From Neobacillus sp. YX16 (lineage in GTDB: Bacteria; Bacillota; Bacilli; Bacillales; Cytobacillaceae): 64,000 nt of DNA. Of the stretch, positions 44,461 through 62,127 are shown one piece after another. The first letter of the stretch is position 1. Each line of letters starts with the position of its first letter. The notes under the pieces were generated by a model. It worked only from the letters and a program-made list of their open reading frames with translations, was not told the DNA's origin and did no database searches. The stretch is from the NCBI RefSeq assembly GCF_030123505.1, contig NZ_CP126115.1, positions 4,044,001 to 4,108,000 on the forward strand, given 5' to 3'. The position numbers and the translations under genes are program-made.

Positions 44461-44483
44461 GCCGGCGCTGCCGGCTTTTTTTA
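44461..44483 (+). terminator. terminator of the betaine-type transporter operon
   Basis: AGCCGGC / GCCGGCT stem and seven T residues. Confidence 0.85.
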
Positions 44484-45098
44484 ATCCTCCATAAAATGGA
44501 CCACTCTCTCATAGGTTTCATCATCCCCAATAATGAGAAGAACGTCGTCTTCAAGAATCAATGCGTAGGGCCCAGGAGAAATAATTAATTCTCCCTTTCT
44601 CTTCATCCCAATCACGGTCCCACCTGTATTTTGCCAAAATTTCACTTCTGAAATCGTCTTGCCGATATGTACACAGCCTTGAAAAACCTCTACCTCAATG
44701 GGAGCTAATGGGTTGGTATGTCGCAGCTTTGTCGAATAATCCATGATTTTTCTAACTGACTCAGAAAGCTGCTCATCGATTTTGTTTCTCTCGGTAAAAA
44801 GTTTGTTAATTTCTTTTTCAAGGTCCTTTATACTCGCCAAATTCGAAAATCTATGTATATATTTATAAGCATTCTCCCGAGAAGAAATAACAATCCCGCT
44901 GCCCTTTGTTGATTGAACAATCTCCACATCTTCTAATATCTTTATTGCTCTTCTTACGGTCTCAGGAGAAACTTTATACTCACTTGCCAAAGTAGATCTT
45001 CCATGAATCCTCTCACCTACTTTGAATTTACCATCGTAAATTCGATTCGCTAAGTCGATTGCTATCCGTTCATAAGTTGGTATTTGTGCCCTTTGCAT
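44481..45098 (-). CDS. GntR-RCK_C regulator, BusR-like (c-di-AMP-responsive type)
   Basis: About 205 residues from ATG 45098 behind GGAGGAA. An N-terminal winged-helix GntR domain (IDLANRIYDGKFKVGERIHG, YKVSPETVRRAIKILED), a helical linker (about 85-130) and a C-terminal RCK_C/TrkA-C domain (about 135-205; GMKRKGELIISPGPYALILEDDVLLIIG). This order is that of BusR, which represses betaine uptake genes when it binds c-di-AMP. It is convergent with the transporter operon, so regulation there would act in trans. Confidence 0.82.
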   Translation of the reverse strand: MQRAQIPTYERIAIDLANRIYDGKFKVGERIHGRSTLASEYKVSPETVRRAIKILEDVEIVQSTKGSGIVISSRENAYKYIHRFSNLASIKDLEKEINKLFTERNKIDEQLSESVRKIMDYSTKLRHTNPLAPIEVEVFQGCVHIGKTISEVKFWQNTGGTVIGMKRKGELIISPGPYALILEDDVLLIIGDDETYERVVHFMED

Positions 45099-45187
45099 AT
45101 ATTCCTCCACGAAACTAAGTCAATTTTACTTTATTATTCCACTATACTCTAAAAAAATGGGCGATGCGAACAGATAGGTTAAACTTC

Positions 45188-45228: not shown

Positions 45229-46224
45229 TTATGAATCAAATCTTTCTAGTAATTCAATGATTACTTTAAAGTCCGAGGTGGTATCCATATAAGCATATCT
45301 GCCTTTTCCATTATAGAAATTCCCCGTTTGAATAACGGGATACCCCATTTTCTCTAGAAGCTTAATTTTTTCATCCATATTTTTAATTACAAACGAAATA
45401 TGATGAACACCTTCTCCATGCGTTTCAAGGTGTTTTTTCCAAGTGCTAGGAGAAAGACCTGGCTCAATTAATTCAATTTGAAGCAGCGGAGTGTTAATAA
45501 ACATATATCTAGAATCACCTTCGGTTGCCTCTCCTTCAAAAACAACCTGAGTAAGCTCGCTTGGTCCTGATTGAATAACTTGTGGTTTTTCAACCCCTAG
45601 TAGTTTACAGTAAGCATCTGCTGCTGCATCGAGATCCTTTACAACAATCGCCAGCTGCTCAACCTTATTAGTCCCGAGCAAAGATTCATAGAATTCTTTA
45701 CTTGGCTCTGTACCCCTTGGTTCAGCACTTTCAAGAAGTTCTACCAGCGTTTTATGGTCATTCAAGGTATCCACATATACATACCTTCCGTCACTTGAAG
45801 TAAATTCACCACTTTGGAGTAATGGATATCCATTTTCTTCAAAAATCGGAAGGCTTACCTTAATAGAATCCACATCAAAGGCAATATGATGTATTCCTTC
45901 TCCCACTGTATCTAAAAATTCTCGCATTGTACCAGGTTCTTCGTTTGGTTCGATTAGTTCAAATTGCACGGTTGGTGTATTCATAAACACTAATTTACTT
46001 CGTGAATTCGTTGGCTTACCGCGAAAAACCACTTTGGAAACCTCACTATCACCTGTTAAGAACCATGCAGGTTTCGGAATCCCGAGAAGTTTAGCAAACA
46101 TTTCAGAGGTCTTTTCAATATCACGAACAACAAAGGCAAGTTGATTGATTTCATTATTGCCAGCCAAAGGTTTTTTTCCTGTTAACGATTTAGTCAAAAT
46201 GGTCACCTCTAGTTCTTTTTTCAT
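45229..46224 (-). CDS. two-domain VOC (glyoxalase/methylmalonyl-CoA epimerase-like) protein
   Basis: 331 residues containing two tandem VOC halves (about 20-165 and 185-330) that align with each other (INQLAFVVRD / VEQLAIVVKD; GEGIHHIAFDV / GEGVHHISFVI; LVELLE / IIELLE). The usual first metal His is Gln in both halves while the later His and Glu remain. An internal duplication is visible. Likely acts on an oxoacid or ring-cleavage intermediate. Start overlaps the SDR stop by four bases, so translation is coupled. Last gene of the operon. Confidence 0.82.
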   Translation of the reverse strand: MKKELEVTILTKSLTGKKPLAGNNEINQLAFVVRDIEKTSEMFAKLLGIPKPAWFLTGDSEVSKVVFRGKPTNSRSKLVFMNTPTVQFELIEPNEEPGTMREFLDTVGEGIHHIAFDVDSIKVSLPIFEENGYPLLQSGEFTSSDGRYVYVDTLNDHKTLVELLESAEPRGTEPSKEFYESLLGTNKVEQLAIVVKDLDAAADAYCKLLGVEKPQVIQSGPSELTQVVFEGEATEGDSRYMFINTPLLQIELIEPGLSPSTWKKHLETHGEGVHHISFVIKNMDEKIKLLEKMGYPVIQTGNFYNGKGRYAYMDTTSDFKVIIELLERFDS

Positions 46225-47006
46225 CCTAGGCCACGGACAGATAATCCACCATCACTCGATATAACTTCTCCAGTAATCGCCCTTGCTTTATCGGAAGCAA
46301 GCAGCAAGTAAGCTCCTACATGGTCTTCAGAAGACATTGCAATCCGAAGCGGATTTCGTGATTTAATACTTTTTTCTTTTGTCTCGTTATCTACCATTTT
46401 TACAAATGGCTGAAGCGGAGAAATGACATTTAGTGCTGTCAACGTTCCTCCCGGAGCAACAGCATTCACTCTTATATCAGGAGCAAGCTCAAACGCAAGC
46501 TGGCGCAATAAACCAATTTGTGCGTGTTTGCTGGCGGTGTACCAGACTCCTCCCCCATCAGGATAGAACCCCGCACCTGACACAGTGAAAATCATATTAC
46601 CGCCTGTTTTCTTCAATTCCTCCACTGACGCCTTTGCCCCATTGAAATATCCTTTTACATTGATGTCAAACAGGAAGTCATATGCATTTGACATTGCTTC
46701 GGGAGTAACAGTTTGGAATTTAGCAAACCCATCAAAAACACCAGCATTCGCAACAAAAACATCTAACTTCCCAAATGCTTCCACGGCCATCCGAACTGCA
46801 TCAGCATGTGCTTGATAATTCGTAACATCTCCCTCGATACATTGCACAGAATCACCAAACTGCTGCTTTAGTTGATTCAGTCCCTCTAATGATTTATCGA
46901 GAACGGTAAGCACTGCTCCTTCTTTCACAAAAGCTTCTGTTACTGCCTTTCCGATACCAGAAGCACCACCAGTCAAATAAACTGATTTACCACTTAACTG
47001 AGCCAT
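46221..47006 (-). CDS. cis-dihydrodiol dehydrogenase (BphB/HcaB-like SDR)
   Basis: 261 residues. TGGASGIG (12-19), NAG near 88, catalytic Ser in VSGAGFYPDGG, then YTASKHAQIGLLRQLAFELAP. The Ser-rich loop and the VNAVAPGG stretch match the BphB/HcaB/NdoB family that oxidises cis-dihydrodiols to catechols. It lies next to the Rieske oxygenase genes. RBS AAGGGG. Confidence 0.9.
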   Translation of the reverse strand: MAQLSGKSVYLTGGASGIGKAVTEAFVKEGAVLTVLDKSLEGLNQLKQQFGDSVQCIEGDVTNYQAHADAVRMAVEAFGKLDVFVANAGVFDGFAKFQTVTPEAMSNAYDFLFDINVKGYFNGAKASVEELKKTGGNMIFTVSGAGFYPDGGGVWYTASKHAQIGLLRQLAFELAPDIRVNAVAPGGTLTALNVISPLQPFVKMVDNETKEKSIKSRNPLRIAMSSEDHVGAYLLLASDKARAITGEVISSDGGLSVRGLG

Positions 47007-47036
47007 AAATACTGCCCCTTCCTGCTACGAAAGCCA

Positions 47037-47546
47037 TTACACAAAGATAGCTAAATTTCTTGTATTAATAGTCGTTTGGTCAACAATGAAAAAGCGTTTC
47101 GATAGTTTCCATTCTCCATTTTCAAAAATAAATTCATCTAGTCGTTCACCAGATATTAAATCGTGATGAATATCGGTACTGCGACTGCGGTAAATCATCA
47201 AATAACTGTTTACCACTGCTTTTTCATTTGGCTTATAATCTATCAGCCGCACATTGTTCACTAATCTTCTAGTTCGGGAAGGAGGAATTTCAGCCCATGC
47301 ATAATCCGTTTTTAGACGATCCACACGAATTTTCAATAATTCAATGTCATCATCAAATGCATACATATCTAAGGCATAATCTGGGCGTTCTGTACCCTCC
47401 TTATTAACACGGACCGGCATTTGATATTTTAATGATGGGTGCATTAAACTAAACCACCCATCAAAATCAATATCATCTAACAGTTTCGCTTCCTGATAGA
47501 GCCATTGTTCAAATTCGTATGTCGCTAGCATCTTCTCAATTGTCAT
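47037..47546 (-). CDS. ring-hydroxylating dioxygenase beta subunit
   Basis: 169 residues with an NTF2-like/SnoaL-like fold; EQWLYQEAKLLDDIDFDGWFSLMHPSLKYQMP and RTRRLVNNVRLIDYK follow the beta subunits of biphenyl/naphthalene-type oxygenases. Structural partner of the alpha subunit encoded immediately upstream. RBS GAGGGAG, ATG. Confidence 0.9.
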   Translation of the reverse strand: MTIEKMLATYEFEQWLYQEAKLLDDIDFDGWFSLMHPSLKYQMPVRVNKEGTERPDYALDMYAFDDDIELLKIRVDRLKTDYAWAEIPPSRTRRLVNNVRLIDYKPNEKAVVNSYLMIYRSRSTDIHHDLISGERLDEFIFENGEWKLSKRFFIVDQTTINTRNLAIFV

Positions 47547-47608
47547 AACTTCTCCCTCAATCCTTTAATATTTTTTTGTCAAAAGTCATGAAAAGTGTGA
47601 GAGCAACC

Positions 47609-48913
47609 TCACTTAGTCATTAAGTCAAGCCAGTAACGATAAAAATTTCTTTGATTGGCTTCAGTAAATTTATCATCATAAACGACACCTGGACCAACGA
47701 ATTCTGTGACTGGTTTACGGTGCAAGCCCATCGTGTAATTAAATGTAAGCTGTTTTACTAATGGCATCGTACCAGAGGCAGCAGCTGTAATGTCTGTGAA
47801 TACTTCTGTGTCATCCTGTTCAAATATACCTGAAGGGCTAAATGTCAGAATAAATGATTCTCGTGAGCGTCTTTTCCAATCCTCTGGAGCATTTTTCTCA
47901 ACTAAAAACCATGTAATTACTTCCATTTTGTCCACAGATATTGGTCTCCAAATGCGCATAGAAGTATTAGAGATTAACTGGCCTTTAATTTTTGTATGAG
48001 AAATTAAAAACGATAGGTTAGGAAAGATGTTTCCGATCATATTCTTAAGATTAGATAGAACCTCGTATTGTTCTTCCGTTAGATTTGCTTTGTACTCATC
48101 CTTTAATTCTTCAGGGAAGGCGAAGTCTGGATTCGGTGTGCCAAGGTTCAAACCATGCCCATTATTGGTGTGGATTTGATAGCCTTTTTTTGAATAAGTT
48201 GCACTTGGGACCATTCCTAATTTGGCAATAGAACCGTGAGTAACCATCGTATGATAGGAATCACCTACGAAGTTATCTGCTCCGATTTTCCAATTGGAAT
48301 GAATAACGAATCTTTGCGGAGGTCCCATAACTTCCATTTCTGCTCTTCCTGCAAATATATCAATATACCATTTAAAATCGCCTAAAAAAGCATCTAAAGA
48401 CTCTACTTCATCATTCCAAGTACCAAATATTAGTCCTTTGTATGACTCCACTCTAATTTTGTGTAAACCCAGCTGAGATTTATCTAAGTCAACACCGTAA
48501 ATGTCTTTTTGTAATGGAATACCGACACAATCTCCATTGTTTTTAAAATTAAAGCCGTGATAAGGACAAGTAAATAATGACTTATTGCCAGCATCTGCGC
48601 GACAAAGCTTCATCCCGCGGTGTGTACACATATTGTATAGGCCACGGATTTGATTATCAGCACCTCGAGAAATAATGACCGAATAACCAGACACATCCCT
48701 TGTGATGAAGTCATTTTTGTTAGGAATTTCTGATTCATGTCCAATAAATACCCAAGTTTTTAAAAATACTTTTTTGTGCTCTAAATCATATATCGTTGGA
48801 TCACCAAGAAGATAGGCAGGAATGGCTCCCGTGTCAGGTTTAACGGTTTCATTTAAGTATTCAATGGCTTCTTTTTGAGACATCTCTTCTAAATTAATGT
48901 TCGTTTTGTACAT
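47609..48913 (-). CDS. Rieske ring-hydroxylating dioxygenase alpha subunit
   Basis: 434 residues. The Rieske [2Fe-2S] ligands are C96, H98, C116, H119 (CTHRG...CPYH). The catalytic iron site is DNFVGDSYHTMVTH with H221 and H226, bridging D218, and a C-terminal Asp in EQDDTE near 372. Length and spacing fit Group III/biphenyl-type alpha subunits. It would insert O2 into an aromatic ring to make a cis-dihydrodiol. No ferredoxin or reductase gene is in the window. RBS GGAGG. Confidence 0.93.
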   Translation of the reverse strand: MYKTNINLEEMSQKEAIEYLNETVKPDTGAIPAYLLGDPTIYDLEHKKVFLKTWVFIGHESEIPNKNDFITRDVSGYSVIISRGADNQIRGLYNMCTHRGMKLCRADAGNKSLFTCPYHGFNFKNNGDCVGIPLQKDIYGVDLDKSQLGLHKIRVESYKGLIFGTWNDEVESLDAFLGDFKWYIDIFAGRAEMEVMGPPQRFVIHSNWKIGADNFVGDSYHTMVTHGSIAKLGMVPSATYSKKGYQIHTNNGHGLNLGTPNPDFAFPEELKDEYKANLTEEQYEVLSNLKNMIGNIFPNLSFLISHTKIKGQLISNTSMRIWRPISVDKMEVITWFLVEKNAPEDWKRRSRESFILTFSPSGIFEQDDTEVFTDITAAASGTMPLVKQLTFNYTMGLHRKPVTEFVGPGVVYDDKFTEANQRNFYRYWLDLMTK

Positions 48914-49021
48914 TGCCCTTTCCTCCTAAATATAGTTTGCATTGCTACTCATTCAGGGGAAAAAGCAATTAATAACGTTTACCCCTTTATGTTATTATTA
49001 AGGTTCTTTCCTATAAATAAT

Positions 49022-49804
49022 TTAACCGACTTGGATAACAGCATCTTTATTTTTCAATGATGACAATACACTAAGAGCAGCCAAATAACTCGTTTTTGGA
49101 TTATTCGGCATAGGATCATTTTCAACCTTTAGAGATAATGTGCCAAAGGATCCTGCTGCTTCGATATTATGACTATTTTTCTTAATACCTGGATCAGAAA
49201 TGATTTTTACTCGGGTTTTATCCGGTCCTAATCCTGCAAGGGACAAAATGATTGAAACATTGATGTTTTTTGGGAATAACTCAATGGCATCACGAGCAGA
49301 ACCCTCAAAAAGAACCTGTTCTATATCCAATGGTGCACCCGGTAAAGCCTGAGGCGGCTTCCTTGTAATAATCGAAACACTGTCGAGTTCACCATTGGAT
49401 TTCGCTGCTTTTAAGACATCTAATCCCCCAATTGCACCGGAGGGGAGGTATATTTTTTTGCCATTCTCCTTGCAGATTTCTTCCAACGAATGAATAAAAT
49501 TCAGATCACTGAGAGCACCAACACTGCTAAGTACTAAATCCTTACCACTGCTTAGAACCTGAGCAGCATACTCTTTCACTACTTCGACAGTAGCAGCTTC
49601 GATAACTAAGTCTATATTCGACTGTAATAGTGATTGAATATCATCAAAGACTTCAGTATCAAATTCAGCTGCTAGCTGCTGTGCCGATTTTGGATTGCGG
49701 GTATAAATGCCAACAATTTTGGAATTTACTAGGAGATTATTGGTATTAATACTTTGAAGTAGGAATCTGCCAATGTTTCCACCGCCGATTAAGCCGATAT
49801 TCAT
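49022..49804 (-). CDS. L-aspartate dehydrogenase-like protein (NadX/DUF108)
   Basis: 260 residues. GLIGGGNIGRFLLQSI (about 4-19) is the NAD(P) loop; KIISDPGIKKNSHNIEAAGSFG (about 200-220) carries the conserved His and Gly-rich stretch of the AspDH family. AspDH converts L-aspartate and NAD+ to iminoaspartate/oxaloacetate plus ammonia. Inside an aromatic operon the true substrate may be a different amino acid or semialdehyde. RBS AAGGAGG. Confidence 0.82.
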   Translation of the reverse strand: MNIGLIGGGNIGRFLLQSINTNNLLVNSKIVGIYTRNPKSAQQLAAEFDTEVFDDIQSLLQSNIDLVIEAATVEVVKEYAAQVLSSGKDLVLSSVGALSDLNFIHSLEEICKENGKKIYLPSGAIGGLDVLKAAKSNGELDSVSIITRKPPQALPGAPLDIEQVLFEGSARDAIELFPKNINVSIILSLAGLGPDKTRVKIISDPGIKKNSHNIEAAGSFGTLSLKVENDPMPNNPKTSYLAALSVLSSLKNKDAVIQVG

Positions 49805-49820
49805 CTGACGATCCTCCTTA

Positions 49821-51266
49821 TCAGTTGCCTAACCCGTAGGAATCTGCAAAATATTCTAACCCACAGTGCCTTGTTTCACGAGATAGTCCACTTTCTTTTA
49901 GACCTGGGAAATCAAGATGGAGGTCTTGGAAAACGGTATGGTTATTATGAAAAACAGCTCCTGCTTCTAATTGGTCTGCCAATTGGATTGCCAGTTCTTC
50001 ATCCTCGGTCCAAACCGACGCTCTTAAGCCGAATTCGCTGTCATTTGCAAACTTAATGGCTTCTTCTACGGATGTAAAAGGCAAAATAGGAATAACAGGA
50101 CCAAATTGTTCCGCACGAACAATTTCACTATTTTGATCTGCACCCGTAATAATCGTTGGTAAGATAAAGTACCCTTGATCCCATGATTCAGGATCTATCT
50201 GAATTCCAGCTGAAATGATATTTGCACCCGAATCAGCTGCACGTTTAATTAACCCTTTAACATAGTCATATTGCGATTTATTATTTAAAGGTCCCATTTC
50301 AACATCAGGCTGCATTCCATTGCCAACCCTGATTCTTTGAAATTCTTTTTTTAGTTTTTCTACGACCTCTTCATACCTTGATTCATGTACATAAATCCTT
50401 TTTATAGCTGAACATACCTGGCCTGCAGCGCGAAGTACTCCGAAACGAAGACGTTTAATACTATCTTCATCAAGATTAGCATCTTCAAAAATAATGGCGG
50501 CATCATTTCCACCCAGTTCCATATAAAGGTTCTTTACAGTACCTGAAGCTGCACGCATGATCTCTTTTCCCGTTTCAGTACTGCCCACGAAAGCAATCGT
50601 CTTTACTCTTGGGTCAGAACAAAGCATCTCTCCAATCACACTACCCGAACCTGTTACAACATTAATGACTCCTGCTGGGAAATAGGAAGCCACCACCTTT
50701 AAAAATGACATAATTGTGAGCGGACAATTTGTAGCTGGCTTAACCACTACAGTATTTCCTGTCAAAACAGCAGGAATCACTCGCTTAAAGGTTAAAATCA
50801 TCGGCGAGTTCCAAGGTGAAATAACGGCAGTGACACCACGTGCACGTTTTCGAATTTGCACCTTTTGATTGCCTGGCAATATTTCCGGCTTCCACCATTC
50901 AAGAAGTTCATCTGCTGCTTGGTGCATAATATCTACACAGCGCAGCAAATCTTTCTTTGCTTCCACTAGTACTTTTCCATTCTCACGTACTAGCAAGGTT
51001 ACATTCTCTTCAACTTGTGCTTTTATTTCCTCAGCTGCCAAATGCATGCTGCTTGCTCGTTCCTCAATATTGCTGTGGGACCAGTTCTCGTATGCCTTTT
51101 CGGCTGTAGCAATCGCATGATCAACATCTACTTTGGAGCATAAAGCTACTTCCCCGACAACTTCATCTATATATGCTGGATTGGTGACATTAGCTTTTTT
51201 TTCTGCTTCATACCAATTACCGCCAATCAAGTACTTACCTGAAACAAATGGATATGTTGAGATCAT
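49821..51266 (-). CDS. aldehyde dehydrogenase family
   Basis: 481 residues. Conserved ELGGND (Glu general base), GQVCSAIKRIYV with catalytic Cys near residue 287, and ISPWNSPMILTFKRVIPA for NAD binding. Oxidises an aldehyde to the acid, probably a semialdehyde from ring cleavage. RBS AAGGGGGG. Starts 12 bases after the ThDP gene. Confidence 0.9.
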   Translation of the reverse strand: MISTYPFVSGKYLIGGNWYEAEKKANVTNPAYIDEVVGEVALCSKVDVDHAIATAEKAYENWSHSNIEERASSMHLAAEEIKAQVEENVTLLVRENGKVLVEAKKDLLRCVDIMHQAADELLEWWKPEILPGNQKVQIRKRARGVTAVISPWNSPMILTFKRVIPAVLTGNTVVVKPATNCPLTIMSFLKVVASYFPAGVINVVTGSGSVIGEMLCSDPRVKTIAFVGSTETGKEIMRAASGTVKNLYMELGGNDAAIIFEDANLDEDSIKRLRFGVLRAAGQVCSAIKRIYVHESRYEEVVEKLKKEFQRIRVGNGMQPDVEMGPLNNKSQYDYVKGLIKRAADSGANIISAGIQIDPESWDQGYFILPTIITGADQNSEIVRAEQFGPVIPILPFTSVEEAIKFANDSEFGLRASVWTEDEELAIQLADQLEAGAVFHNNHTVFQDLHLDFPGLKESGLSRETRHCGLEYFADSYGLGN

Positions 51267-51278
51267 TCTTTTCCCCCC

Positions 51279-52970
51279 TTAAAGCTTTCTCGGTTTGAAT
51301 GCATCTGCTGCGCCTGGAGGTCCTCCAAATGGCTTTGCCATTGGTCCCACAGCTTCCATATCAACAACAATAATAGCTGGTTTTTTAGTATCAACTGCTT
51401 TTTCAAGTGCTGAGACAAATTCATCAGGTGAGCCGATTCTAGTAGAATCAAATCCCATAGATTGTCCTAATAGTACAAAATCAGGACTTAAGAGATCGAC
51501 TGCTACTTGACGTCCGTAGGCAGCATCTTGAATATTTCGGAGTACCCCATAGCCAGCATCATCGAACAATACCACGATTAATGGTAAATTTTCTTGAGCA
51601 GCAGTTGCCATTTCTCCTACATTCACCATAAATCCGCCATCACCAGCCATCAACACTACTTGACGGTCTTTGAAAGCCATTTGTGCGCCAATGGCTGTCG
51701 GTAATCCCTGGCCAATTCCTCCACCAGAAGCATGAATAGAAGTACGAGGTTCATAGATTTCAAATAATCGACTTCCCCACACATTTGCTTGGACGGTTAC
51801 ATCACGCACTAATATAGAATCACGCGGCAATATTTTTCGCATGCCATCTAGAATTTGTTCGTATGGACCAAGGGTTGCTCGTAACGCAGCTCGTAATTCT
51901 TGTCGTACCGATTGTACTTCATCTAGATATGCCGGGTCAGGATTTATTTCTATATTGGTTAAGTCTTGAATGATTGTATTAAGGATTTGCTTGGCATCAC
52001 CTACTAGCCCATTGGTAGCTTCGTAGTTCCGATTAATAGCCTGCCAATCTGCATCAATGGCAATATGTTCTTTCGGAACAGGAACTTTCCAGTTCGCAGT
52101 TTCGTTTCCTCTAAAACGTACACCAATACTTATCAATAAATCTGAATCCATTAATAATTTTTTCGTTAACTCGTATGCTGCAAAGTGACCGATACACTGA
52201 GGATGATCTTCTGGAATACTTCCTTTTCCAGTTTGACTTGTGATAACAGCTGCACCAATTATTTCTGCCAATTGCTTTACTTCATTCGATGCCCCTGCAG
52301 AAATCACTCCTCCCCCTGCCCAAATAACAGGACGGCGGGCATTACTGACTTTGGCTACGATTTCTTTGGGTAAATCTATAGCTATATGGCTCGTTGGAGC
52401 TGCGAATCTGACTTCTTCAAGAGTATAGTTTGGGATAATTGCAGATTGAAAATCGATGGGAATTTCAAGCGTTACTGGTCCAGATGGAGCAGCTAATGCA
52501 TCTTGAATCGCTTGTCTAACTACAGCAGCTATTTGCTCCGGTTTTCTTAAACGAAGTGCCTTTTTACAGGCTCCTTCCATCATCGACAACTGATCCTTAC
52601 ATTCGTGAATATATCCTCTTCCCGTACCTAAGTAAGGAGAAGCTACTTCACCAGTAATATGCAGAACAGGCACGCCTGCTGCCCAAGCTTCAATAAGTGA
52701 ACCGGCAGCATTTCCAGCTCCAGTCCCTGTACTAGTAATGACGACACCCAATTTACCAGTTGCACGTGCATAACCATCAGCCATATTAACTGCTCCGCTT
52801 TCACCGCGAGAACAAACGAGGTGAATGCTTCCCTCACGAAGAATCGCATCATAGATTGGCATATTATGGATGCTGACAATTCCGAAAGCTGTCGTAACAC
52901 CTGCTCGGACTAACTCTTGAACAATAGCATCTGCCGTTGTAAATTCCATTTGAACTTGTGGACTCATCAT
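51279..52970 (-). CDS. thiamine-diphosphate-dependent enzyme (acetolactate synthase / benzoylformate decarboxylase family)
   Basis: 563 residues, three-domain ThDP enzyme. Catalytic Glu is E57 in SRGESGAVNMADGYA; the ThDP/Mg motif is GDGGFMVNVGEMATAAQENLP...VLFDD near residue 440. FAD-binding features of acetolactate synthase are not obvious by eye. It may decarboxylate a 2-oxo acid or form an acyloin. RBS AGGAG. Upstream of the ALDH, suggesting decarboxylase then aldehyde oxidation. Confidence 0.87.
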   Translation of the reverse strand: MMSPQVQMEFTTADAIVQELVRAGVTTAFGIVSIHNMPIYDAILREGSIHLVCSRGESGAVNMADGYARATGKLGVVITSTGTGAGNAAGSLIEAWAAGVPVLHITGEVASPYLGTGRGYIHECKDQLSMMEGACKKALRLRKPEQIAAVVRQAIQDALAAPSGPVTLEIPIDFQSAIIPNYTLEEVRFAAPTSHIAIDLPKEIVAKVSNARRPVIWAGGGVISAGASNEVKQLAEIIGAAVITSQTGKGSIPEDHPQCIGHFAAYELTKKLLMDSDLLISIGVRFRGNETANWKVPVPKEHIAIDADWQAINRNYEATNGLVGDAKQILNTIIQDLTNIEINPDPAYLDEVQSVRQELRAALRATLGPYEQILDGMRKILPRDSILVRDVTVQANVWGSRLFEIYEPRTSIHASGGGIGQGLPTAIGAQMAFKDRQVVLMAGDGGFMVNVGEMATAAQENLPLIVVLFDDAGYGVLRNIQDAAYGRQVAVDLLSPDFVLLGQSMGFDSTRIGSPDEFVSALEKAVDTKKPAIIVVDMEAVGPMAKPFGGPPGAADAFKPRKL

Positions 52971-52991
52971 TTACTCCTGCCTTTATCCGTA

Positions 52992-53783
52992 TTATAGTGC
53001 TTTCCCAAGTGCTCCCGCCGTTTCTATCGTAGAACCTGATACATAGCTGGCTTGTTTAGAGGATAAAAAGAGAATGACACTTGCAACCTCTTCTGCTTCC
53101 CCAACCCGTCCTAATGGAATATTTCGCTTCTTTGCTAAATCAGCATAATATTCTTCAGGATCCATATCTGGAGCATTTTTCATTCTTCTACGCTCCCATT
53201 GATCGGTTCGTATCAAACCTAAGCTGACTGAGTTTACTAGAATATTATCTGGAGCAAGCTCTTGAGAAAGAGTTTTACTTAAATTTAATAGCCCAGCTCT
53301 TGTAGCTGCTGTCGCAATCATATGTCGTTCAGGCTCTTTGGCCAGAGTTGCGTTGATATTAATAATTCTTCCACCGCCACGCTTGACAAGATATGGATGG
53401 ACAGCCTTAACTGCATAAATGATAGCGAAGTATTTTAGTTGGATTTGCTCCTGCCATTGTTCATCTGTTACATCAAAAAAATACCCCATTACACTTTGCC
53501 CTGCTGCATTCACCAATATATCAATACCATCAAAAAAAGCAGCAGTACCAATTATAAATGCATTAACATCATCTTTATTCGTTACATCACAGGTTGCCGC
53601 ATAAATAGAGTCAGCGGACCCAAACTGTAATAGGTAATCTAAAGCTTTTTCTTTCCGCTCATTATTTCTGCCGCATATTGCTACCTTGGCACCTTCTTGC
53701 AGGAACATCTCAGCTGTTTTTAAACCGACACCTGATGTTCCTCCCATAATAACAGCCACTTTTCCTTTTAAACCCAAGTCCAT
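52992..53783 (-). CDS. SDR-fold protein lacking the YxxxK active site
   Basis: About 263 residues from ATG 53783 behind AAGGGGTG. MGGTSGVG and NAAG cofactor motifs are present, so a nucleotide probably binds, but the position of YxxxK reads TAATR (in IATAATRAGLL) and the catalytic Ser region reads INATLA. It is therefore unlikely to be a normal SDR dehydrogenase. It could have another active site or a regulatory role. It sits directly before the ThDP gene in the operon. Confidence 0.8.
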   Translation of the reverse strand: MDLGLKGKVAVIMGGTSGVGLKTAEMFLQEGAKVAICGRNNERKEKALDYLLQFGSADSIYAATCDVTNKDDVNAFIIGTAAFFDGIDILVNAAGQSVMGYFFDVTDEQWQEQIQLKYFAIIYAVKAVHPYLVKRGGGRIININATLAKEPERHMIATAATRAGLLNLSKTLSQELAPDNILVNSVSLGLIRTDQWERRRMKNAPDMDPEEYYADLAKKRNIPLGRVGEAEEVASVILFLSSKQASYVSGSTIETAGALGKAL

Positions 53784-53808
53784 ATCTACACCCCTTATTA
53801 TCAAACCT

Positions 53809-54723
53809 TTAGAGCAGTGCTTTCACGTTTACCCATCCAGGGTCTGGTTCTCCACCCATCGCTGCGCGGGTTTCTGGCTTTGGAGGTCCAGCAATTCCCC
53901 ATTGGTCCATCAAATGAGGGACACGCTTCCAAACACGGGCTCTCCATTCACTTTCATCTTCAATCGTCTCCAAATAACAGGTATATTCCATGACAAACTT
54001 TGCGGGGTCCTGGAAATAACAAAAAATATTATTACCAGGGCCATGACGTCCTGGTCCCCAAATCTCTTGATATCCAGCCTTCCTGACATTGGCAATTCCA
54101 CGCATTACTTCATCAACCGTATCTACTTCATAAGCAATATGGTTTACTGAAGCATGTTTATCTTGATTAAATGCAAGTGAATGGTGTTTCCGGTTACAGC
54201 GAAGGAAAGACATCTGATGCTCGCTCCAATCCGTAACTTTAAAGCCAATAATATTCGTATAAAAATCAGTAATCATATCTAGGTCTGCTGTATTCATTAC
54301 GACATGATTAAGTTTAACGGGGTCAACATTTTTCTTGTTCCATATGGTTGTATGCATCTCAACCCATGCGGATAATTCGATACAGCGGTTTTCAGGATCA
54401 ACAAACCGAAGACCATAACCTTTTCCTTCTTCATCTAGATAACCAGGATCGGCTATTATTTTTACTCCTTTAGAAGCTAGGAAGTCTGCTGCTCTATCAA
54501 CTGCATTTTTATCGACCATACCAAAAGCGATATGGTGCAGTCCTCTCTTTTCTCCAACATGTAAGCTTAAGATATGATTTTCAGGGCCAGCACCACGAAA
54601 ATATACAGTTTTTTCGTCTTGCGCTACTTTATCTAATCCCCAAATTTTTTCATAAAAATTAGCTTGTTCTTGTAGAACTGGGGTAATTAAACCAATATGT
54701 CTTAAGTGGGTAATACCAACCAT
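53809..54723 (-). CDS. extradiol ring-cleavage dioxygenase-like VOC protein
   Basis: About 304 residues from ATG 54723 behind GGAGGTG. Two VOC domains as in BphC/catechol 2,3-dioxygenase. The second domain has the full 2-His-1-Glu iron site: NHVVM (about 148), NHIAYEV (about 205) and MEYTC (about 255). Predicted to cleave a catechol meta to its hydroxyls. An alpha/beta hydrolase gene nearby could act on the product. Confidence 0.88.
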   Translation of the reverse strand: MVGITHLRHIGLITPVLQEQANFYEKIWGLDKVAQDEKTVYFRGAGPENHILSLHVGEKRGLHHIAFGMVDKNAVDRAADFLASKGVKIIADPGYLDEEGKGYGLRFVDPENRCIELSAWVEMHTTIWNKKNVDPVKLNHVVMNTADLDMITDFYTNIIGFKVTDWSEHQMSFLRCNRKHHSLAFNQDKHASVNHIAYEVDTVDEVMRGIANVRKAGYQEIWGPGRHGPGNNIFCYFQDPAKFVMEYTCYLETIEDESEWRARVWKRVPHLMDQWGIAGPPKPETRAAMGGEPDPGWVNVKALL

Positions 54724-54831
54724 ATTTACACCTCCATTAATGGTTCTATAACTACAACTGTAACATAATAGGGATGATCCCAATGAAAGTTAGAGGACCA
54801 TCCCCATCAAAGAAGATTTTAAAAAGATATT

Positions 54832-55371
54832 TTATTTATTTCCGTTGATAATTGCTTCTCTTTCTTTTGCGCGTTGGATACGAAGCTCTTCAAGTGCACT
54901 GCCTTCTACATAAGTTGGCAGGTTTGGTTTAACGGCCCCAAGCATTACAAGCATTAATGCTTCTTCATCACCATCGTTGTGAATACCACGGTACACTCCT
55001 GGAGGTGAGCTAATGCAATCCCTTTCATTTAAGCGAATTTCGTGCACTTCATCTTTTCCCACCTCTTGAATAAGCGCTTTCACACTGCCCTTAAGAATGA
55101 AGAAAACTTCTTCAACATCATCGTGTAAATGTAGGGGACCAATACAGCCTGCTGGAAGAACCATTGTGCTTAGTGTAAAATGTTCAGCTGCAATAACATT
55201 TGAATCATTATTAGCTGTAGCTCCACGACCGATATATCTCATTTGAGCTCTTTTGTATTTTGGATCAATTTCTTCTTGAAATTTTAAAACGTTCCAATCT
55301 AAACTACGATCTTGTAATCTAGCCACATATTTCTTTTCAAACTCTGCTACATTAAACTTTTCTTCTGCCAT
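54832..55371 (-). CDS. cupin-domain protein
   Basis: About 179 residues from ATG 55371 behind GGAGAG. Cupin motif 1 GPLHLHDDVEEVFFILKG has His-x-His and Glu metal ligands; motif 2 is PPGVYRGIHNDG. The HxH-x4-E order fits metal-binding cupin dioxygenases, isomerases or decarboxylases. First gene of the ten-gene operon, directly downstream of the bipartite operator. Confidence 0.85.
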   Translation of the reverse strand: MAEEKFNVAEFEKKYVARLQDRSLDWNVLKFQEEIDPKYKRAQMRYIGRGATANNDSNVIAAEHFTLSTMVLPAGCIGPLHLHDDVEEVFFILKGSVKALIQEVGKDEVHEIRLNERDCISSPPGVYRGIHNDGDEEALMLVMLGAVKPNLPTYVEGSALEELRIQRAKEREAIINGNK

Positions 55372-55406
55372 CAAAAACACTCTCCTATAAATTTAAATTT
55401 TTATTA

Positions 55407-55431
55407 TGTTTTAAATGCAAAACACTGTTTT
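55407..55431. promoter_or_regulatory. IclR-type bipartite operator (site A)
   Basis: TGTTTT-AAATGC-AAAACA-C-TGTTTT, just downstream of the predicted start of the cupin operon promoter. Confidence 0.6.
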
Positions 55432-55443
55432 CTTTATAAACCA

Positions 55444-55472
55444 ATTTTAAATCTCAATACTTTAATTGTCAA
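55444..55472 (-). promoter_or_regulatory. promoter of the ten-gene catabolic operon
   Basis: Minus strand TTGACA (55467-55472), 17-bp spacer, TAAAAT (55444-55449). Confidence 0.75.
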
Positions 55473-55493
55473 TTAAAAATATTGAGAAAATTC

Positions 55494-55518
55494 AAAACAC
55501 CGTTTTATATTAGTAACA
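55494..55518. promoter_or_regulatory. bipartite operator, upstream copy (site B)
   Basis: AAAACA-C-CGTTTT-ATATTA-GTAACA, 75 bp from the corresponding half-site of site A, upstream of the -35. Confidence 0.5.
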
Positions 55519-55523
55519 ATTTC

Positions 55524-56804
55524 TTAAATTATAACTCTATTAGAATTCACTTTAAGGCTTCGGACATCGACCGCTTCTTTTTTCAATGTAAAGAGATACG
55601 CTGCAAAACCTAATCCTGCTGCCACGATCAACATCACAATCGATGGTCCAAAGTCACCACCTGAAAAATCACGAAGCCAGCCCATAATATAACTTGAAAA
55701 ACCACCTAAAATGTTCGTAAACCCCATTAAGCCAGCAGCACGACCTGCCGTTGCTGGTGTAGAATATTTTACAATAAATAGATTACTTAAATGAAAGACT
55801 CCACCCTGCGTTCCCATTGCTAGTCCCATACAAATTCCTGCAATAACAGGATGAGGAGCAAGTATAGCTGACGCTAGAAAAATCGCAGTTAAACTAAATA
55901 ATATAGTAGCGAGTAAGCTAGGGCGCTTTGTTTTGTCCGCTAAATATCCGCAAGCTAGTACGAAGCCTAGAGCAAACAGCCAAGATAATGAGGTGATACC
56001 AGTCATGGCCTCTCTTGAGAAGCTTTTTGCTTCAACTAAGTAGGTAGGGAGCCAAATACTGATTCCAAAAAATAAAAAGGAAGACATAAGCATTCCAAAC
56101 CAAACAATCCAATAACGATAATCTTGCGTGAAATTTTGCTTTGGTTTTATTTTTTCATTTGGATCAGGAGTGCGAATATACGCTAATTCCTTTTGATCGA
56201 TACGGTGATGTTCTTCAGGTGTATCCCTTGTTAAAAATACAAACATCGGAATGACGATGAAAAGGTTAAATCCAGCTAAAAAGAAAAAGGCAGCTTCCCA
56301 ATGAAAAGTAGCGATTACTAAGCTTAATATCACCGCTCCGCAGGCAGGTCCAAAGTAGTTTCCAGCCAGCCATGAAGATTGAGCTCTTCCAAGCTCGCGA
56401 TGGTTAAACCAATTGGAGATAAATTTCCCACAGACAGGAATCATCATCCCTTCACCAAATCCTAGGATCACACGGCTTACAAGAAACATCTCATAGGAAG
56501 TTGCCAGTCCTCCAAATATCATCGTGAGTGTCCAAATACAGAGGCCTATGATCGCTGTTTTTCTAGCTCCTAGTTTATCAATAATAAAACCCCAAAATAG
56601 ATTAGAAAAAGCATAGGACACGGTAAAGATGAATGTGATGAAGCCAATTTTTGCGTTTTTATCTGCTCCTGTTATACCTAGGTCTGCTAGGAAGGACGGA
56701 TCAGTTTGGATAATTGAAATGCCTAACTTATCAATTTGTCCAAAAAACCAAAAGAAAAAGATTGGGACTGCAATATAAAGCCACCTTTTGTTCCCCATCA
56801 ACAT
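55524..56804 (-). CDS. MFS transporter (anion:cation symporter type)
   Basis: 426 residues, twelve membrane helices. Motif WGFIIDKLGARKTAIIGLCIW (loop 2-3) and VSRVILGFGEGMMIPV are typical of the ACS family that imports aromatic and sugar acids. Probable importer of the pathway substrate. ATG with AAGGGGGG. Own promoter with operator sites C and D. Confidence 0.9.
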   Translation of the reverse strand: MLMGNKRWLYIAVPIFFFWFFGQIDKLGISIIQTDPSFLADLGITGADKNAKIGFITFIFTVSYAFSNLFWGFIIDKLGARKTAIIGLCIWTLTMIFGGLATSYEMFLVSRVILGFGEGMMIPVCGKFISNWFNHRELGRAQSSWLAGNYFGPACGAVILSLVIATFHWEAAFFFLAGFNLFIVIPMFVFLTRDTPEEHHRIDQKELAYIRTPDPNEKIKPKQNFTQDYRYWIVWFGMLMSSFLFFGISIWLPTYLVEAKSFSREAMTGITSLSWLFALGFVLACGYLADKTKRPSLLATILFSLTAIFLASAILAPHPVIAGICMGLAMGTQGGVFHLSNLFIVKYSTPATAGRAAGLMGFTNILGGFSSYIMGWLRDFSGGDFGPSIVMLIVAAGLGFAAYLFTLKKEAVDVRSLKVNSNRVII

Positions 56805-56827
56805 ATAATCCCCCCTTAAATAAATTA

Positions 56828-56852
56828 TGTTTCATATAGAAAACATCGTTTT
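56828..56852. promoter_or_regulatory. IclR-type bipartite operator (site C)
   Basis: TGTTTC-ATATAG-AAAACA-T-CGTTTT, just downstream of the MFS promoter start. Confidence 0.6.
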
Positions 56853-56863
56853 TCCTTAATTTA

Positions 56864-56892
56864 ATTTTAAATTTATAAGAATATTATGTCAA
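56864..56892 (-). promoter_or_regulatory. promoter of the MFS gene
   Basis: Minus strand TTGACA (56887-56892), 17-bp spacer, TAAAAT (56864-56869). Confidence 0.75.
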
Positions 56893-56920
56893 TACATATT
56901 CAAAAAAATGTTTCGTTATC

Positions 56921-56945
56921 AAAATAATGTTTTATATACGAAACA
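56921..56945. promoter_or_regulatory. bipartite operator, upstream copy (site D)
   Basis: AAAATA-A-TGTTTT-ATATAC-GAAACA, 81 bp from the equivalent half-site of site C, upstream of the MFS promoter. Confidence 0.5.
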
Positions 56946-56965
56946 AAATCAGATATTAATCACAC

Positions 56966-56990
56966 AAAAAAAAACTTGCGTTTGCAAGCC
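56966..56990 (-). terminator. terminator of the hydrolase-IclR unit
   Basis: CTTGC / GCAAG stem with nine T residues on the minus strand. Confidence 0.75.
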
Positions 56991-57002
56991 TTTTCTACTT
57001 AT

Positions 57003-57791
57003 CTAGTTTTTTAAATGATATCCCATATAGCTAGACAATTTTGCTGATGTTTCTAATGCTCTAGGCAGTGCTACTTTCTCGATGAATTCATTATGGAATG
57101 TTGTTTCAGTAGCTACTACATTTACAGCTGCCAAAACCTTTCCAGAACGGTCGAAAATCGGCGCAGCCACTGATTGAATTCCTAACGTTAATTCTCCTTT
57201 GGTAATCGCATATCCTTTTTTACGAATTCCTTCTAATTCTTCCTGTAAATCTAATAAATCAGTTTGGGTCCTATCTGTATAAGGTTTTAAATTTGATCCA
57301 TATAAAACCATATTTAATTGTTCCTTCGATTGGTATGCTAGCTGCACCTTTCCATTTGCAGTTGCATGGGCAGGGAGTCTAAGTCCAATATTAACATTAA
57401 TGGCTGAAATGCCTCTAACAGGGGCGCTCCCTACATAAACAACTTCATGTCCATCCAATATCGAAAGATGACAGGATGCTCCTGTTTCATCTCTTAAGTT
57501 TTCAATATATGGCTGCGCAATTTCCGGAAGCTTTAAACTACTTAAGTATGAAAACCCAATTTCTAAAACTTTAGGTGTTAAACTGTATCGCTTAGTGGCT
57601 TCATCTTGAGCTAGGTAACCAAGTGATTGAAGAGTAAATAATAACCTAAATGGTACTGTCCGGCTTACGTTTAGTTCTTTTGCAATTTCGACCAATGATA
57701 ATGTCTGCCGTTCCTCACCAAACAACTTTAATATTTCTAATCCTCTTACTAATGCATTGGCATTATATCGTTCTTTATCATCCTTTGTCAT
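57003..57791 (-). CDS. IclR family transcriptional regulator (paralogue 1)
   Basis: About 262 residues from ATG 57791 behind GGGAGG. Winged-helix HTH (SLVEIAKELNVSRTVPFRLLFTLQ, about 33-56) and a C-terminal IclR effector domain (LRLPAHATANGKVQLAY, GIQSVAAPIFDRSGKVLAAVNVVAT). Very similar throughout to the divergent IclR at 58839. Forms a unit with the alpha/beta hydrolase gene, whose promoter holds operator site E. Confidence 0.92.
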   Translation of the reverse strand: MTKDDKERYNANALVRGLEILKLFGEERQTLSLVEIAKELNVSRTVPFRLLFTLQSLGYLAQDEATKRYSLTPKVLEIGFSYLSSLKLPEIAQPYIENLRDETGASCHLSILDGHEVVYVGSAPVRGISAINVNIGLRLPAHATANGKVQLAYQSKEQLNMVLYGSNLKPYTDRTQTDLLDLQEELEGIRKKGYAITKGELTLGIQSVAAPIFDRSGKVLAAVNVVATETTFHNEFIEKVALPRALETSAKLSSYMGYHLKN

Positions 57792-57830
57792 CGTTCCCAC
57801 ACCTCCCTTGAGCGGTTAATATTCTGTGAT

Positions 57831-58616
57831 TTAACTAAGAAAGTCCAATACAATTTTATTAAAGCTGTTCGGATTTTCCTGATAACATAAATGTCCTGTT
57901 CCCGGAATGATTACTAACTCTGAATTTTTTAGCTGTTTATGGAAAATCTCTGACTCACTTACCGGGGTTACCTTATCGAATTCTCCACAAATAATAAGTG
58001 AGCGAGTCGTAATAGAGGATAACATGTTCATTTGGTTTAAATGAAATAAAGAATATGCAACTGATCGGTACCCCATAGGTCTTACCTGTGACATAATTCT
58101 TTCCGCTTCCTTTTTGACTTCTGGATCAGGATTTGGCGACAGAAGTTCCTTCACTCTTTTTGCAGCAATTTCCTTTGGATCTAATGTATTAATATTATTA
58201 AGGCGTGCTGTTAACCTCTTTTGATTTTCTTCCATACTTAACGATGCGGATCCCCTTGTAGCATCTGAGATGATTAAAGTTTCCACCATTTCAGGAAATC
58301 GATAACAAAAATCCAGTGCAATCGCAGAACCCATCGAATGTCCTAAGAGAGTTACAGATTTATAGTTTAGGGCATCTATAAATCCTTTTAAAATATCTGC
58401 AAACTGACTAAACTCCTTGAATTCCTCTTTAGGGTCTGAACTCTTTCCATATCCTGGTGCATCCCAAGCGATCACCGTATAATTTTCACTTAGCCCAGCT
58501 AATTGATTTTTCCAGGATTGAGAATTGTTACCCATCCCATGGAGTATGATTATCGGGTTTCCGTTCCCTTCTTTCTCATAATGAATAGATAAATCCTCTA
58601 CGGATAAATACGGCAT
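57831..58616 (-). CDS. alpha/beta hydrolase (possible meta-cleavage product hydrolase)
   Basis: 261 residues. LLGHSMGSAIALDF holds the nucleophile Ser (GHSMG, about residue 96); the acid is in CGEFDKVTPVS (about 215) and the His in PGTGHLCYQENP (about 242). The complete triad and single-domain length fit the BphD/HsaD type of C-C hydrolases, but other esters are possible. RBS GGAGG; 30 bases ahead of the IclR gene. Confidence 0.88.
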   Translation of the reverse strand: MPYLSVEDLSIHYEKEGNGNPIIILHGMGNNSQSWKNQLAGLSENYTVIAWDAPGYGKSSDPKEEFKEFSQFADILKGFIDALNYKSVTLLGHSMGSAIALDFCYRFPEMVETLIISDATRGSASLSMEENQKRLTARLNNINTLDPKEIAAKRVKELLSPNPDPEVKKEAERIMSQVRPMGYRSVAYSLFHLNQMNMLSSITTRSLIICGEFDKVTPVSESEIFHKQLKNSELVIIPGTGHLCYQENPNSFNKIVLDFLS

Positions 58617-58700: not shown

Positions 58701-58838
58701 CGGAATTTTCAGATTAATTAAGATTTTTATCGGTGTTAAAAGACGCAGGACAGGAAAATGTTGTATAATATTAACGAATCTTGTAATTAACAAGCTGATC
58801 CAATTGCCTCAACTACCGTTTTACTAGGAGTGATATAT

Positions 58839-59627
58839 ATGTCTGAAGATAAAAATGATCGTTACTTATCCAATTCTCTTGTTAGAGGTTTAGAAATATT
58901 AAAGATGTTTAATGGTGACATGCCCACACTTTCATTATCTGAAATAGCTAATAAGCTTAATGTTAGTCGTACAACTCCTTACCGAATCTTGTTCACTCTT
59001 CAATCCTTAGGTTATATCAGGCAGGATGAACTAACAAAAAGATATGAACTGACGCCTAAAGTCCTTGAACTAGGGTTCACCTATTTGAATACAATGCCTT
59101 TGTTAGACTTAGCACGGCCTTACTTAGAAGAACTCAGAGATAAAACGGGGTTATCAACACATCTCGGAATACTTGATGGTAATGAAGTTGCTTATATCGC
59201 AAGAGTTCCTGGAAAAGGTGTATCAACTGTCAATGTTACAGTTGGCTCAAGACTTCCTGCACATGCTACGGCTTTAGGAAAGGTATTGCTTGCATTTCAG
59301 AAAGAAGAAAAATTAACCGCCATGCTAAATGGGAATGAATTAAAGTCGTATACCGGTAAGACAAAAACAGAACTACTAGCATTAGAAAAAGAATTAACAA
59401 AAATAAAGAAAAAGGGTTATTCTACAAGCGATGAAGAATTTGAAAACGGAATATTTTCTGTTGCTGCTCCAATAGTAAATAAACAGGGTCATATTATTGC
59501 CGCAATTAATGTCGTAGCACCTGTGGCCGTCTGTAAAGATGATTTTATTACGGAAACAGTTATTCCTGTTTTACTAAAACAGGCAGACCAACTTTCTTCC
59601 TATTCAGGATATCACCAACATAATTAA
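58839..59627 (+). CDS. IclR family transcriptional regulator (paralogue 2)
   Basis: About 262 residues from ATG 58839 behind AGGAGTG. HTH SLSEIANKLNVSRTTPYRILFTLQ and effector domain SRLPAHATALGKVLLAFQ, VNVVAPV. It pairs with the divergent IclR at 57003 in sequence along its whole length, so the two arose by duplication. Single-gene unit ending at a long perfect hairpin. Confidence 0.92.
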   Translation: MSEDKNDRYLSNSLVRGLEILKMFNGDMPTLSLSEIANKLNVSRTTPYRILFTLQSLGYIRQDELTKRYELTPKVLELGFTYLNTMPLLDLARPYLEELRDKTGLSTHLGILDGNEVAYIARVPGKGVSTVNVTVGSRLPAHATALGKVLLAFQKEEKLTAMLNGNELKSYTGKTKTELLALEKELTKIKKKGYSTSDEEFENGIFSVAAPIVNKQGHIIAAINVVAPVAVCKDDFITETVIPVLLKQADQLSSYSGYHQHN

Positions 59628-60461: not shown

Positions 60462-60512
60462 CCTTTCACCTCTTCAAGTCCCTAGTAAGTTCCTCTCATA
60501 ATCAACTTGAGA

Positions 60513-62126: not shown

Positions 62127-62127
62127 C

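Follow-up and report, generated by a model that had tools for sequence, protein, structure and literature searches.

An operon at positions 45229–58616 of a 64,000-nucleotide stretch of the Neobacillus sp. YX16 genome (contig NZ_CP126115.1, positions 4,044,001 to 4,108,000; the whole stretch is termed the window, and all coordinates of the operon refer to it) is interpreted here, with confidence a little above even, as encoding the complete catabolism of kynurenate (4-hydroxyquinoline-2-carboxylate). The operon was confirmed to be real and not a chance arrangement. It comprises 13 genes, rather than the ten counted in a preliminary description of this DNA, all of which lie on the minus strand of a 6.23 Mb genome represented by one contig, and their catalytic residues are intact except for the replaced YxxxK pair of one short-chain dehydrogenase/reductase (SDR2); every gene named in that description was indeed located on this strand. 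A broader proposal is put forward more tentatively, with rather less than even confidence, namely that the operon and its relatives encode a pathway whose description dates from around 1960. In this pathway kynurenate, and xanthurenate via a flavin hydroxylase, would be converted to 7,8-dihydroxykynurenate and onwards to 2-oxoglutarate, CO2 and L-aspartate, by means of a cupin representing a new hydroxypyridine-cleaving class, a pseudo-SDR acting as enone reductase, a thiamine diphosphate (ThDP)-dependent decarboxylase and an L-aspartate dehydrogenase (AspDH) working reductively. It would be distributed among Bacillota, Proteobacteria and haloarchaea, the last having different enzymes on the oxygenase side and, where the others have the cupin, a NicX-like protein.

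The kynurenate (quinoline) pathway of Pseudomonas has been known as biochemistry since about 1960 and constitutes a branch of KEGG map00380. The classical route begins with 7,8-dihydroxylation and dehydrogenation of the resulting dihydrodiol, followed by extradiol cleavage at 8,8a; the propenyl side chain is then reduced, decarboxylation leads to a formylethyl compound, and the latter is oxidised to a carboxyethyl dihydroxypicolinate. Kynurenate breakdown in Pseudomonas was reportedly described by Taniuchi and Hayaishi in 1963, and in a paper of 1961. The order of enzyme classes in the operon corresponds to this old route (steps 1–6 below), which points to kynurenate as the substrate. The biochemistry of kynurenate breakdown is also cited in PMC11354673 and PMC5610271. 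While the route proposed for the operon and the Pseudomonas pathway share the same succession of reaction types, the latter is known as biochemistry and no gene-assigning paper was found; within the open literature, with most subscription journals uncovered, there was neither a paper giving genes for kynurenate degradation nor one describing the cluster. In line with the preliminary description, no characterised pathway with this gene set was found in the open literature, although the biochemical pathway itself is old.

Predicted reactions of the operon-encoded enzymes

In the residue counts that follow, homologues below 34% identity or 60% reference coverage were removed first. The first step would be catalysed by a Rieske dioxygenase composed of an alpha subunit (47609–48913; closest structures naphthalene dioxygenase 2b1x and phthalate 3,4-dioxygenase 9jp5) and a beta subunit (47037–47546; PF00866), acting as a kynurenate 7,8-dioxygenase that yields the 7,8-cis-dihydrodiol. 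The [2Fe-2S] ligands of the alpha subunit are retained in 35 of 36 sequences (with one gap) and the mononuclear iron ligands in all 36. SDR1 (46221–47006), an HcaB-type cis-dihydrodiol dehydrogenase scoring just under the NF004849 cut-off (320.6 against 330 bits), would then convert kynurenate-7,8-dihydrodiol to 7,8-dihydroxykynurenate; the Tyr and Lys of its YxxxK motif are kept in 35/35 homologues, and in 78/78 sequences of the proteobacterial counterpart. The third step is assigned to VOC1 (53809–54783, with a likely ATG start near 54723), a type I extradiol dioxygenase of the vicinal oxygen chelate superfamily, which resembles HpaD and catechol 2,3-dioxygenase while scoring under their cut-offs, and which as an 8,8a-dioxygenase would cleave C8–C8a to give 5-(3-carboxy-3-oxopropenyl)-4,6-dihydroxypicolinate. 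Its metal ligands (H, H, E) and catalytic His are present in 116/116 sequences. A ring-hydroxylating dioxygenase, a dihydrodiol dehydrogenase and an extradiol dioxygenase thus occur together in one unit, as judged from families and catalytic residues, which define the enzyme class and not the substrate. The HcaEFCBD phenylpropionate pathway likewise has Rieske alpha and beta subunits and an HcaB-type dehydrogenase, but the operon proteins score well under the NCBIfam equivalog thresholds for HcaE, HcaF and HcaB (252, 105 and 273 bits against cut-offs of 830, 230 and 450, respectively), and the operon has no ferredoxin or reductase and a different lower pathway.

Candidates for side-chain reduction, decarboxylation and oxidation are all present and conserved. 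SDR2 (52992–53804, likely ATG start 53783) belongs to the PRK07062 family (NF005468, 293.9 bits; cut-off 266) and departs from the classical SDRs, as Tyr and Lys of the catalytic YxxxK pair are replaced by Thr and Arg in 115/115 homologues, with the glycines of the NAD motif retained; its earlier designation as a non-catalytic SDR was correct in this respect. It is proposed to act as an NAD(P)H-dependent enone reductase on the side-chain C=C bond (step 4). The 2-oxo acid would subsequently be decarboxylated by the ThDP enzyme (51279–52970; PRK07064 family, NF005470 652.9 bits, cut-off 495), in which the Glu and the GDG motif are invariant (115/115) and whose PDB neighbours, BbmA, acetolactate synthase, glyoxylate carboligase and benzoylformate decarboxylase, are not decisive. 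In step 6, the aldehyde dehydrogenase (ALDH; 49821–51266, PF00171; catalytic Glu in 120/120 and Cys in 119/120 sequences) would oxidise the formylethyl aldehyde to the carboxyethyl compound.

Step 7 is attributed to a cupin (54832–55380, likely ATG start 55371; PF07883), which with O2 may open the 4-hydroxy-2-pyridone ring at C4–C4a to form N-(2-oxoglutaryl)-aminofumarate. Across 40 sequences, H81, H83, E87, E88 and five Arg residues are invariant, the Arg residues being suited to a polyanionic substrate, and in the second motif Arg replaces the usual His; the predicted model has a mean confidence (pLDDT) of 90.7. Comparison with PDB sequences returned weak matches only, for example to quercetinase QueD (E 0.006). 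Further indications come from three haloarchaeal loci (Halocatena L048, Salinigranum L054 and Halostella L177), which encode an HcaEF-type Rieske enzyme, an HcaB-type SDR, a VOC protein, a ThDP enzyme and AspDH, and in which the reference cupins had no match at E 1e-4. They carry instead a protein of 350 residues that matches no Pfam family and whose sole PDB match is 2,5-dihydroxypyridine 5,6-dioxygenase 7cn3 (E 1.4e-51 for L048 and 7.8e-49 for L054; the L177 protein is 81% identical). It keeps the His and His-x-Asp motifs, which we take to be the iron ligands, and thus fits a NicX-type enzyme by sequence. The presence of a NicX-like protein in cupin-less loci probably indicates a hydroxypyridine intermediate, and cupin and NicX-like protein together imply a second ring opening.

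In the nicotinate lower pathway (NicX/NicD/NicC), as in the route proposed here, a dioxygenase opens a hydroxypyridine and an alpha/beta hydrolase splits the resulting enamide, the latter being the function of NicD. NicX has its counterpart in the haloarchaeal loci and NicC in a flavoenzyme beside some clusters, whereas the bacterial clusters use a cupin and the predicted products are 2-oxoglutarate and iminosuccinate. A second ring opening by hydrolysis, with cupin and hydrolase together releasing glutarate and iminosuccinate from the kynurenate route, is considered improbable. Hydrolysis would be chemically possible on a beta-dicarbonyl pyridone, and a cupin with Arg for the second-motif His need not be an oxygenase; however, no glutarate-degrading gene was recognised in the recurrent flanking clusters (by eye from sequence starts, and not exhaustively), the haloarchaeal counterpart is related to a ring-cleaving dioxygenase, and glutamate is a reported product (PMC11354673).

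Under the oxygenolytic kynurenate route, the alpha/beta hydrolase (ABH; 57831–58616) would hydrolyse the N-acyl enamine to 2-oxoglutarate and iminosuccinate (step 8). Its Ser-Asp-His triad is well preserved (Ser in 83/86 sequences with three gaps, Asp and His in 86/86); its 44 listed neighbours include esterases and meta-cleavage hydrolases, and no pyridine-pathway hydrolase was noticed among them. In step 9, AspDH (49022–49804; TIGR03855 237.2 bits, cut-off 206.55; PDB 2dc1, E 4.5e-43) is proposed to reduce iminosuccinate to L-aspartate, which aspartase, encoded within the operon in some relatives, would convert to fumarate and ammonia. The sequence family of AspDH and its active-site His (140/140) fit L-aspartate dehydrogenase (NadX). 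A second AspDH is encoded elsewhere in the window genome, and NAD biosynthesis is considered unlikely as the main role of the operon-borne enzyme in view of its catabolic operon context. The carbon balance of the proposed route closes (10 = 5+1+4): 2-oxoglutarate would receive C4a, C5, C6, C7 and C8a, iminosuccinate C2 with its carboxyl group, C3 and C4, and CO2 would derive from C8. According to section 10 of PMC11354673, pseudomonads form glutamate, alanine and organic acids from kynurenate, and these products agree with 2-oxoglutarate and aspartate as end points.

In relatives of the operon, aspA (aspartate ammonia-lyase) was found at three different positions, namely after ABH (L154; 992 bits, cut-off 876), after VOC2 (L161) and between Rieske beta and SDR1 (L153), the L153 and L161 copies being 80–82% identical to that of L154, which suggests that L-aspartate is a likely product that is subsequently deaminated. 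Close to clusters L102 and L104 of Acinetobacter, an AspA-like protein (46%) is encoded that may be an aspartase or a fumarase. A malic enzyme-like gene lies at most about 400 bases past VOC2 in L148, L149 and L151, and near the operon in L154.

These observations bear on a phenylalanine/phenylpropionate-type route, in which the Rieske enzyme and SDR1 would generate a 2,3-catechol, VOC1 would open it, ABH would act as a C-C hydrolase freeing aspartate and AspDH would oxidise the latter. The likeness of Rieske alpha, Rieske beta and SDR1 to HcaE, HcaF and HcaB, respectively, accords with such a route, as does the resemblance of ABH to meta-cleavage hydrolases, among others, and a C-C hydrolase would indeed be expected to free aspartate from a phenylalanine-like substrate. 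Nevertheless, it is judged unlikely: it leaves the strongly conserved cupin, SDR2, ThDP enzyme and ALDH without a step and the NicX-like gene unexplained, and an aspartase within the operon would make oxidation of aspartate by AspDH superfluous. The scheme of the preliminary description (oxygenation, ring cleavage, ThDP-dependent decarboxylation, ALDH oxidation and AspDH acting on an amino-carboxylate) fits the kynurenate route in outline; what it did not contain was a substrate, a second opening of a ring, AspDH working in the reductive direction and the broad occurrence of the gene set.

Conservation of the operon among Bacillaceae

Within the family, a Rieske alpha subunit of at least 76% identity was detected in 34 of 193 genomes, and SDR2 (NF005468) scored above its cut-off in 33 of the 193, all inside the Rieske-alpha set, genome G134 being the exception. 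The G134 locus (L163, G134:C134:12300–32200), from a draft assembly of the same species and the closest relative, showed only VOC2, SDR1, Rieske and AspDH genes in the fetched stretch. For gene counts, 34 loci were fetched from 33 genomes other than that of the window (G000), and a gene scored as absent may lie past the end of its stretch. Both Rieske subunits, SDR1 and AspDH were present at 34/34 loci, ALDH, the ThDP enzyme, SDR2, the cupin and the major facilitator superfamily (MFS) transporter at 33/34, VOC1 at 32/34, the IclR regulator at 31/34 and VOC2 at 30/34. ABH was detected at 8/34 at the first threshold, many stretches stopping beside this gene, and in 20/20 of the stretches that reach further upstream. 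The cupin, at 80–100% identity, ranks with the most strongly conserved proteins of the operon. The co-occurrence of AspDH, Rieske alpha, ThDP enzyme and ALDH, the absence of which the preliminary description had named as grounds for abandoning its view, was observed. One genome (G157) holds two copies of the operon (L154 and L155), of which one has no VOC1/VOC2 match and carries ABH and aspartase at its end, and L213 (G149:C5:1378000–1394000) has about 7 kb between the MFS and IclR1 genes, apparently an insertion.

A shared lower half with divergent oxygenases in Proteobacteria

With tblastn against plasmid records, the module was located in Klebsiella, Acinetobacter and Caballeronia, while in Novosphingobium the greater part of it was found. 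Among the genera with cluster loci are Klebsiella, Raoultella, Serratia, Acinetobacter and Burkholderia; locus L090 is from Acinetobacter baylyi. The proteobacterial set comprised the loci of the best 80 among 570 relatives confirmed for a Klebsiella AspDH and therefore describes close relatives only. Among these 80 loci the module was present at 74, and the individual genes were found as follows: cupin 74, ABH 74, SDR2 73, VOC1 73, ThDP enzyme 72, ALDH 71, Rieske 70, SDR1 70, FAD reductase 64 and ferredoxin 63. A protein of about 100 residues with a recombinase-like helix-turn-helix annotation (L051:1301–1609) lies between the ferredoxin and Rieske genes at 68 of the same 80. The proteobacterial oxygenase is a single 340-residue Rieske protein, mostly accompanied by the ferredoxin and FAD reductase, with phthalate 4,5-dioxygenase and carbazole 1,9a-dioxygenase as PDB neighbours and weaker matches such as 2-oxoquinoline 8-monooxygenase.

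The window proteins share with those of Klebsiella and Caballeronia, respectively, 55 and 51% identity for the cupin, 40 and 42% for SDR2, 38 and 43% for the ThDP enzyme, 39 and 37% for AspDH, 34 and 31% for ALDH, 28 and 29% for ABH, 29 and 29% for SDR1 and 23 and 24% for VOC1, while the two Rieske types could not be aligned over their full length. The lower-half identities against the divergent upper enzymes indicate a common lower pathway fed by exchangeable upper enzymes: by sequence comparison, the lower half (cupin, SDR2, ThDP enzyme, AspDH, ALDH and ABH) is common and the oxygenase part is swapped.

A broader draw of 250 Burkholderiales genomes yielded AspDH at E ≤ 1e-30 in 35 of them (48 places, of which 30 were fetched), and the cluster occurred at 6 of the 30 (L181, L182, L184, L185, L186 and L196). 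AspDH also adjoins an alpha/beta hydrolase and an SDR in L180 and L189 (L189:8197–12704), and in L189 a proline racemase-like gene and a cupin of another kind were also recognised by eye. The low share of Burkholderiales AspDH places with the cluster, together with the six of the best 80 loci at which AspDH stands alone, would suit a conventional aromatic operon whose AspDH and ThDP enzyme perform unrelated reactions and merely share a promoter. This explanation is regarded as highly improbable, given that the set is kept repeatedly in Bacillaceae and Proteobacteria despite a rearranged gene order.

At 2 of the 30 Burkholderiales places, AspDH belongs to a 3-hydroxyanthranilate cluster, a type represented by L179:2276–8723, L187 and L190. 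This resembles the operon in employing AspDH in kynurenine-derived catabolism, but it encodes 3-hydroxyanthranilate dioxygenase and an aldolase resembling dihydrodipicolinate synthase, with no Rieske, ThDP enzyme or SDR2 match in the fetched stretches; kynureninase is encoded in L179 and L187. The indole-acetate (iac) pathway was considered and rejected, as its gene set differs.

The exchange of upper enzymes between groups also raises the possibility, which we hold to be a minor though real one, that another fused N-heteroaromatic acid such as quinaldate or a plant hydroxyquinoline carboxylate is degraded, its catechol being opened and its pyridine ring broken to iminosuccinate. The differing types of transporter that accompany the clusters would be in keeping with this, and the NicX-like and flavin proteins indicate only a hydroxypyridine or hydroxy-aromatic compound. 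On the other hand, release of iminosuccinate and aspartate would call for a carboxyl group on C2 and oxygen on C4, as in kynurenate itself or a compound that is converted to it.

A flavin monooxygenase beside some clusters

The flavin monooxygenase encoded near several clusters has 6-hydroxynicotinate 3-monooxygenase as its closest PDB entry (E 2e-80) and 3-hydroxybenzoate 6-monooxygenase as its closest NCBIfam model, under the cut-off. It was searched for in 28 of 50 proteobacterial cluster genomes, the 50 having been drawn from the 80 loci, and orthologues of at least 59% identity were found in 9/28; in 8/9 (the query genome being counted) the gene shares a contig with the cupin and is 4–7 kb away from it, which lends weak support to the kynurenate route. 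In such clusters xanthurenate (8-hydroxykynurenate) might be 7-hydroxylated to the same catechol, though such a second point of entry, for an analogue that already carries the hydroxyl group, is weakly supported. Replacement of the Rieske oxygenase by this enzyme in L083 and L098 was rejected, as a Rieske gene with 70–72% identity lies just past both stretches (G212:C22:226155 and G220:C1:367542).

Observations that weigh against the kynurenate assignment

Several observations count against kynurenate as the substrate or against individual steps. Gene content, conservation, linkage, active-site residues and variants were established computationally, whereas all substrates and reactions were deduced from the class of each enzyme, its gene context and chemistry already known. 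No link of the operon to kynurenate-forming genes, which would be supportive but is not essential, was observed: tryptophan 2,3-dioxygenase (TDO) occurs in 21/50 proteobacterial cluster genomes and does not adjoin the cluster, the distance between TDO and Rieske genes is 1.66 Mb in the window genome and about 30, 49 and 61 kb in G150, G149 and G157, and in the tested clusters no match was obtained with reference sequences of kynureninase or 3-hydroxyanthranilate dioxygenase. TDO was present in 112 of the 193 family genomes, comprising 28/34 cluster genomes and 84/159 others (a hand count, not corrected for ancestry). The Bacillaceae operon carries no ferredoxin or reductase gene of its own, and no protein with Reductase_C (PF14759), the reductase family searched for, is encoded in the window genome, which does encode two Rieske proteins of ferredoxin size elsewhere. 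The fold search with the cupin was generic, with TM1459, DddK, CapF, auxin-binding protein and quercetinase among the matches and no prominent family. VOC2, encoded at 30 of the 34 Bacillaceae loci, is without a step in the scheme.

The comparison between groups also gives rise to objections. Between Bacillaceae and Proteobacteria, the upper enzymes are no close orthologues of one another, so that their substrates could differ, and the Rieske gene adjoining the L083 and L098 stretches makes the flavin enzyme an addition rather than a substitute. In the three haloarchaeal loci no ALDH match was obtained, the only SDR matched is of the HcaB type, with no SDR2, and the ThDP enzyme is just 23–25% identical; the haloarchaeal pathway may thus differ in its middle section. 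PA3504–PA3511 may represent the same cluster in P. aeruginosa. A P. aeruginosa strain lacking kynU accumulates kynurenate up to 100 µM in rich medium (PMC4938989). If PA3504–PA3511 are the cluster, this accumulation either argues against the proposed function or points to repression or to the lack of an upper half.

Implications of the proposed pathway

The individual enzyme classes are known, while the combination and the last three proposed steps are not known to this analysis. To our knowledge, EC 1.14.99.2, 1.3.1.18 and 1.13.11.10 are orphan enzymes without sequences. Were the assignment true, nine loosely annotated enzyme families would gain functions together, bacterial kynurenate removal would become predictable from sequence, the presence of aspartate dehydrogenase in catabolic operons would be explained, and the missing genetic blueprint for the breakdown of kynurenic acid, a tryptophan product, would be provided. 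The reported targets of kynurenate include AMPA and NMDA receptors, GPR35 and AHR (PMC5610271), and in humans it is regarded largely as an end product (PMC11354673). The Acinetobacter genes A1S_0956–0958 turned up in the literature searched only within expression tables.

Transport, regulatory and neighbouring genes

Substrate import is proposed to involve the MFS transporter (55524–56804; PF07690) and ABC (ATP-binding cassette) transporters, and regulation would be exerted by IclR proteins. The first of these, encoded at 57003–57800, is PcaR/PcaU/PobR-like (TIGR02431 238.8 bits, under the cut-off of 284.75), and a second, divergent IclR gene lies on the plus strand (58830–59627) and recurs in 4/20 upstream stretches of relatives. 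An SsuABC/TauABC-like ABC transporter (59709–63141, minus strand; two permeases, ATPase and binding protein), found in 5/20 upstream stretches, one of them from another genus with the transporter directly after ABH, is probably a second uptake system. At the opposite end of the operon, VOC2 (45229–46224) consists of two tandem Glyoxalase_4 (methylmalonyl-CoA epimerase-like) domains, in both of which, by eye, Gln seems to stand in place of the first metal His. Beside it lie genes for a GntR regulator with a TrkA_C domain (44481–45110) and a glycine-betaine-type ABC transporter (41766–44452); the GntR gene occurs in just 6/34 loci, and both are probably unrelated to the operon.

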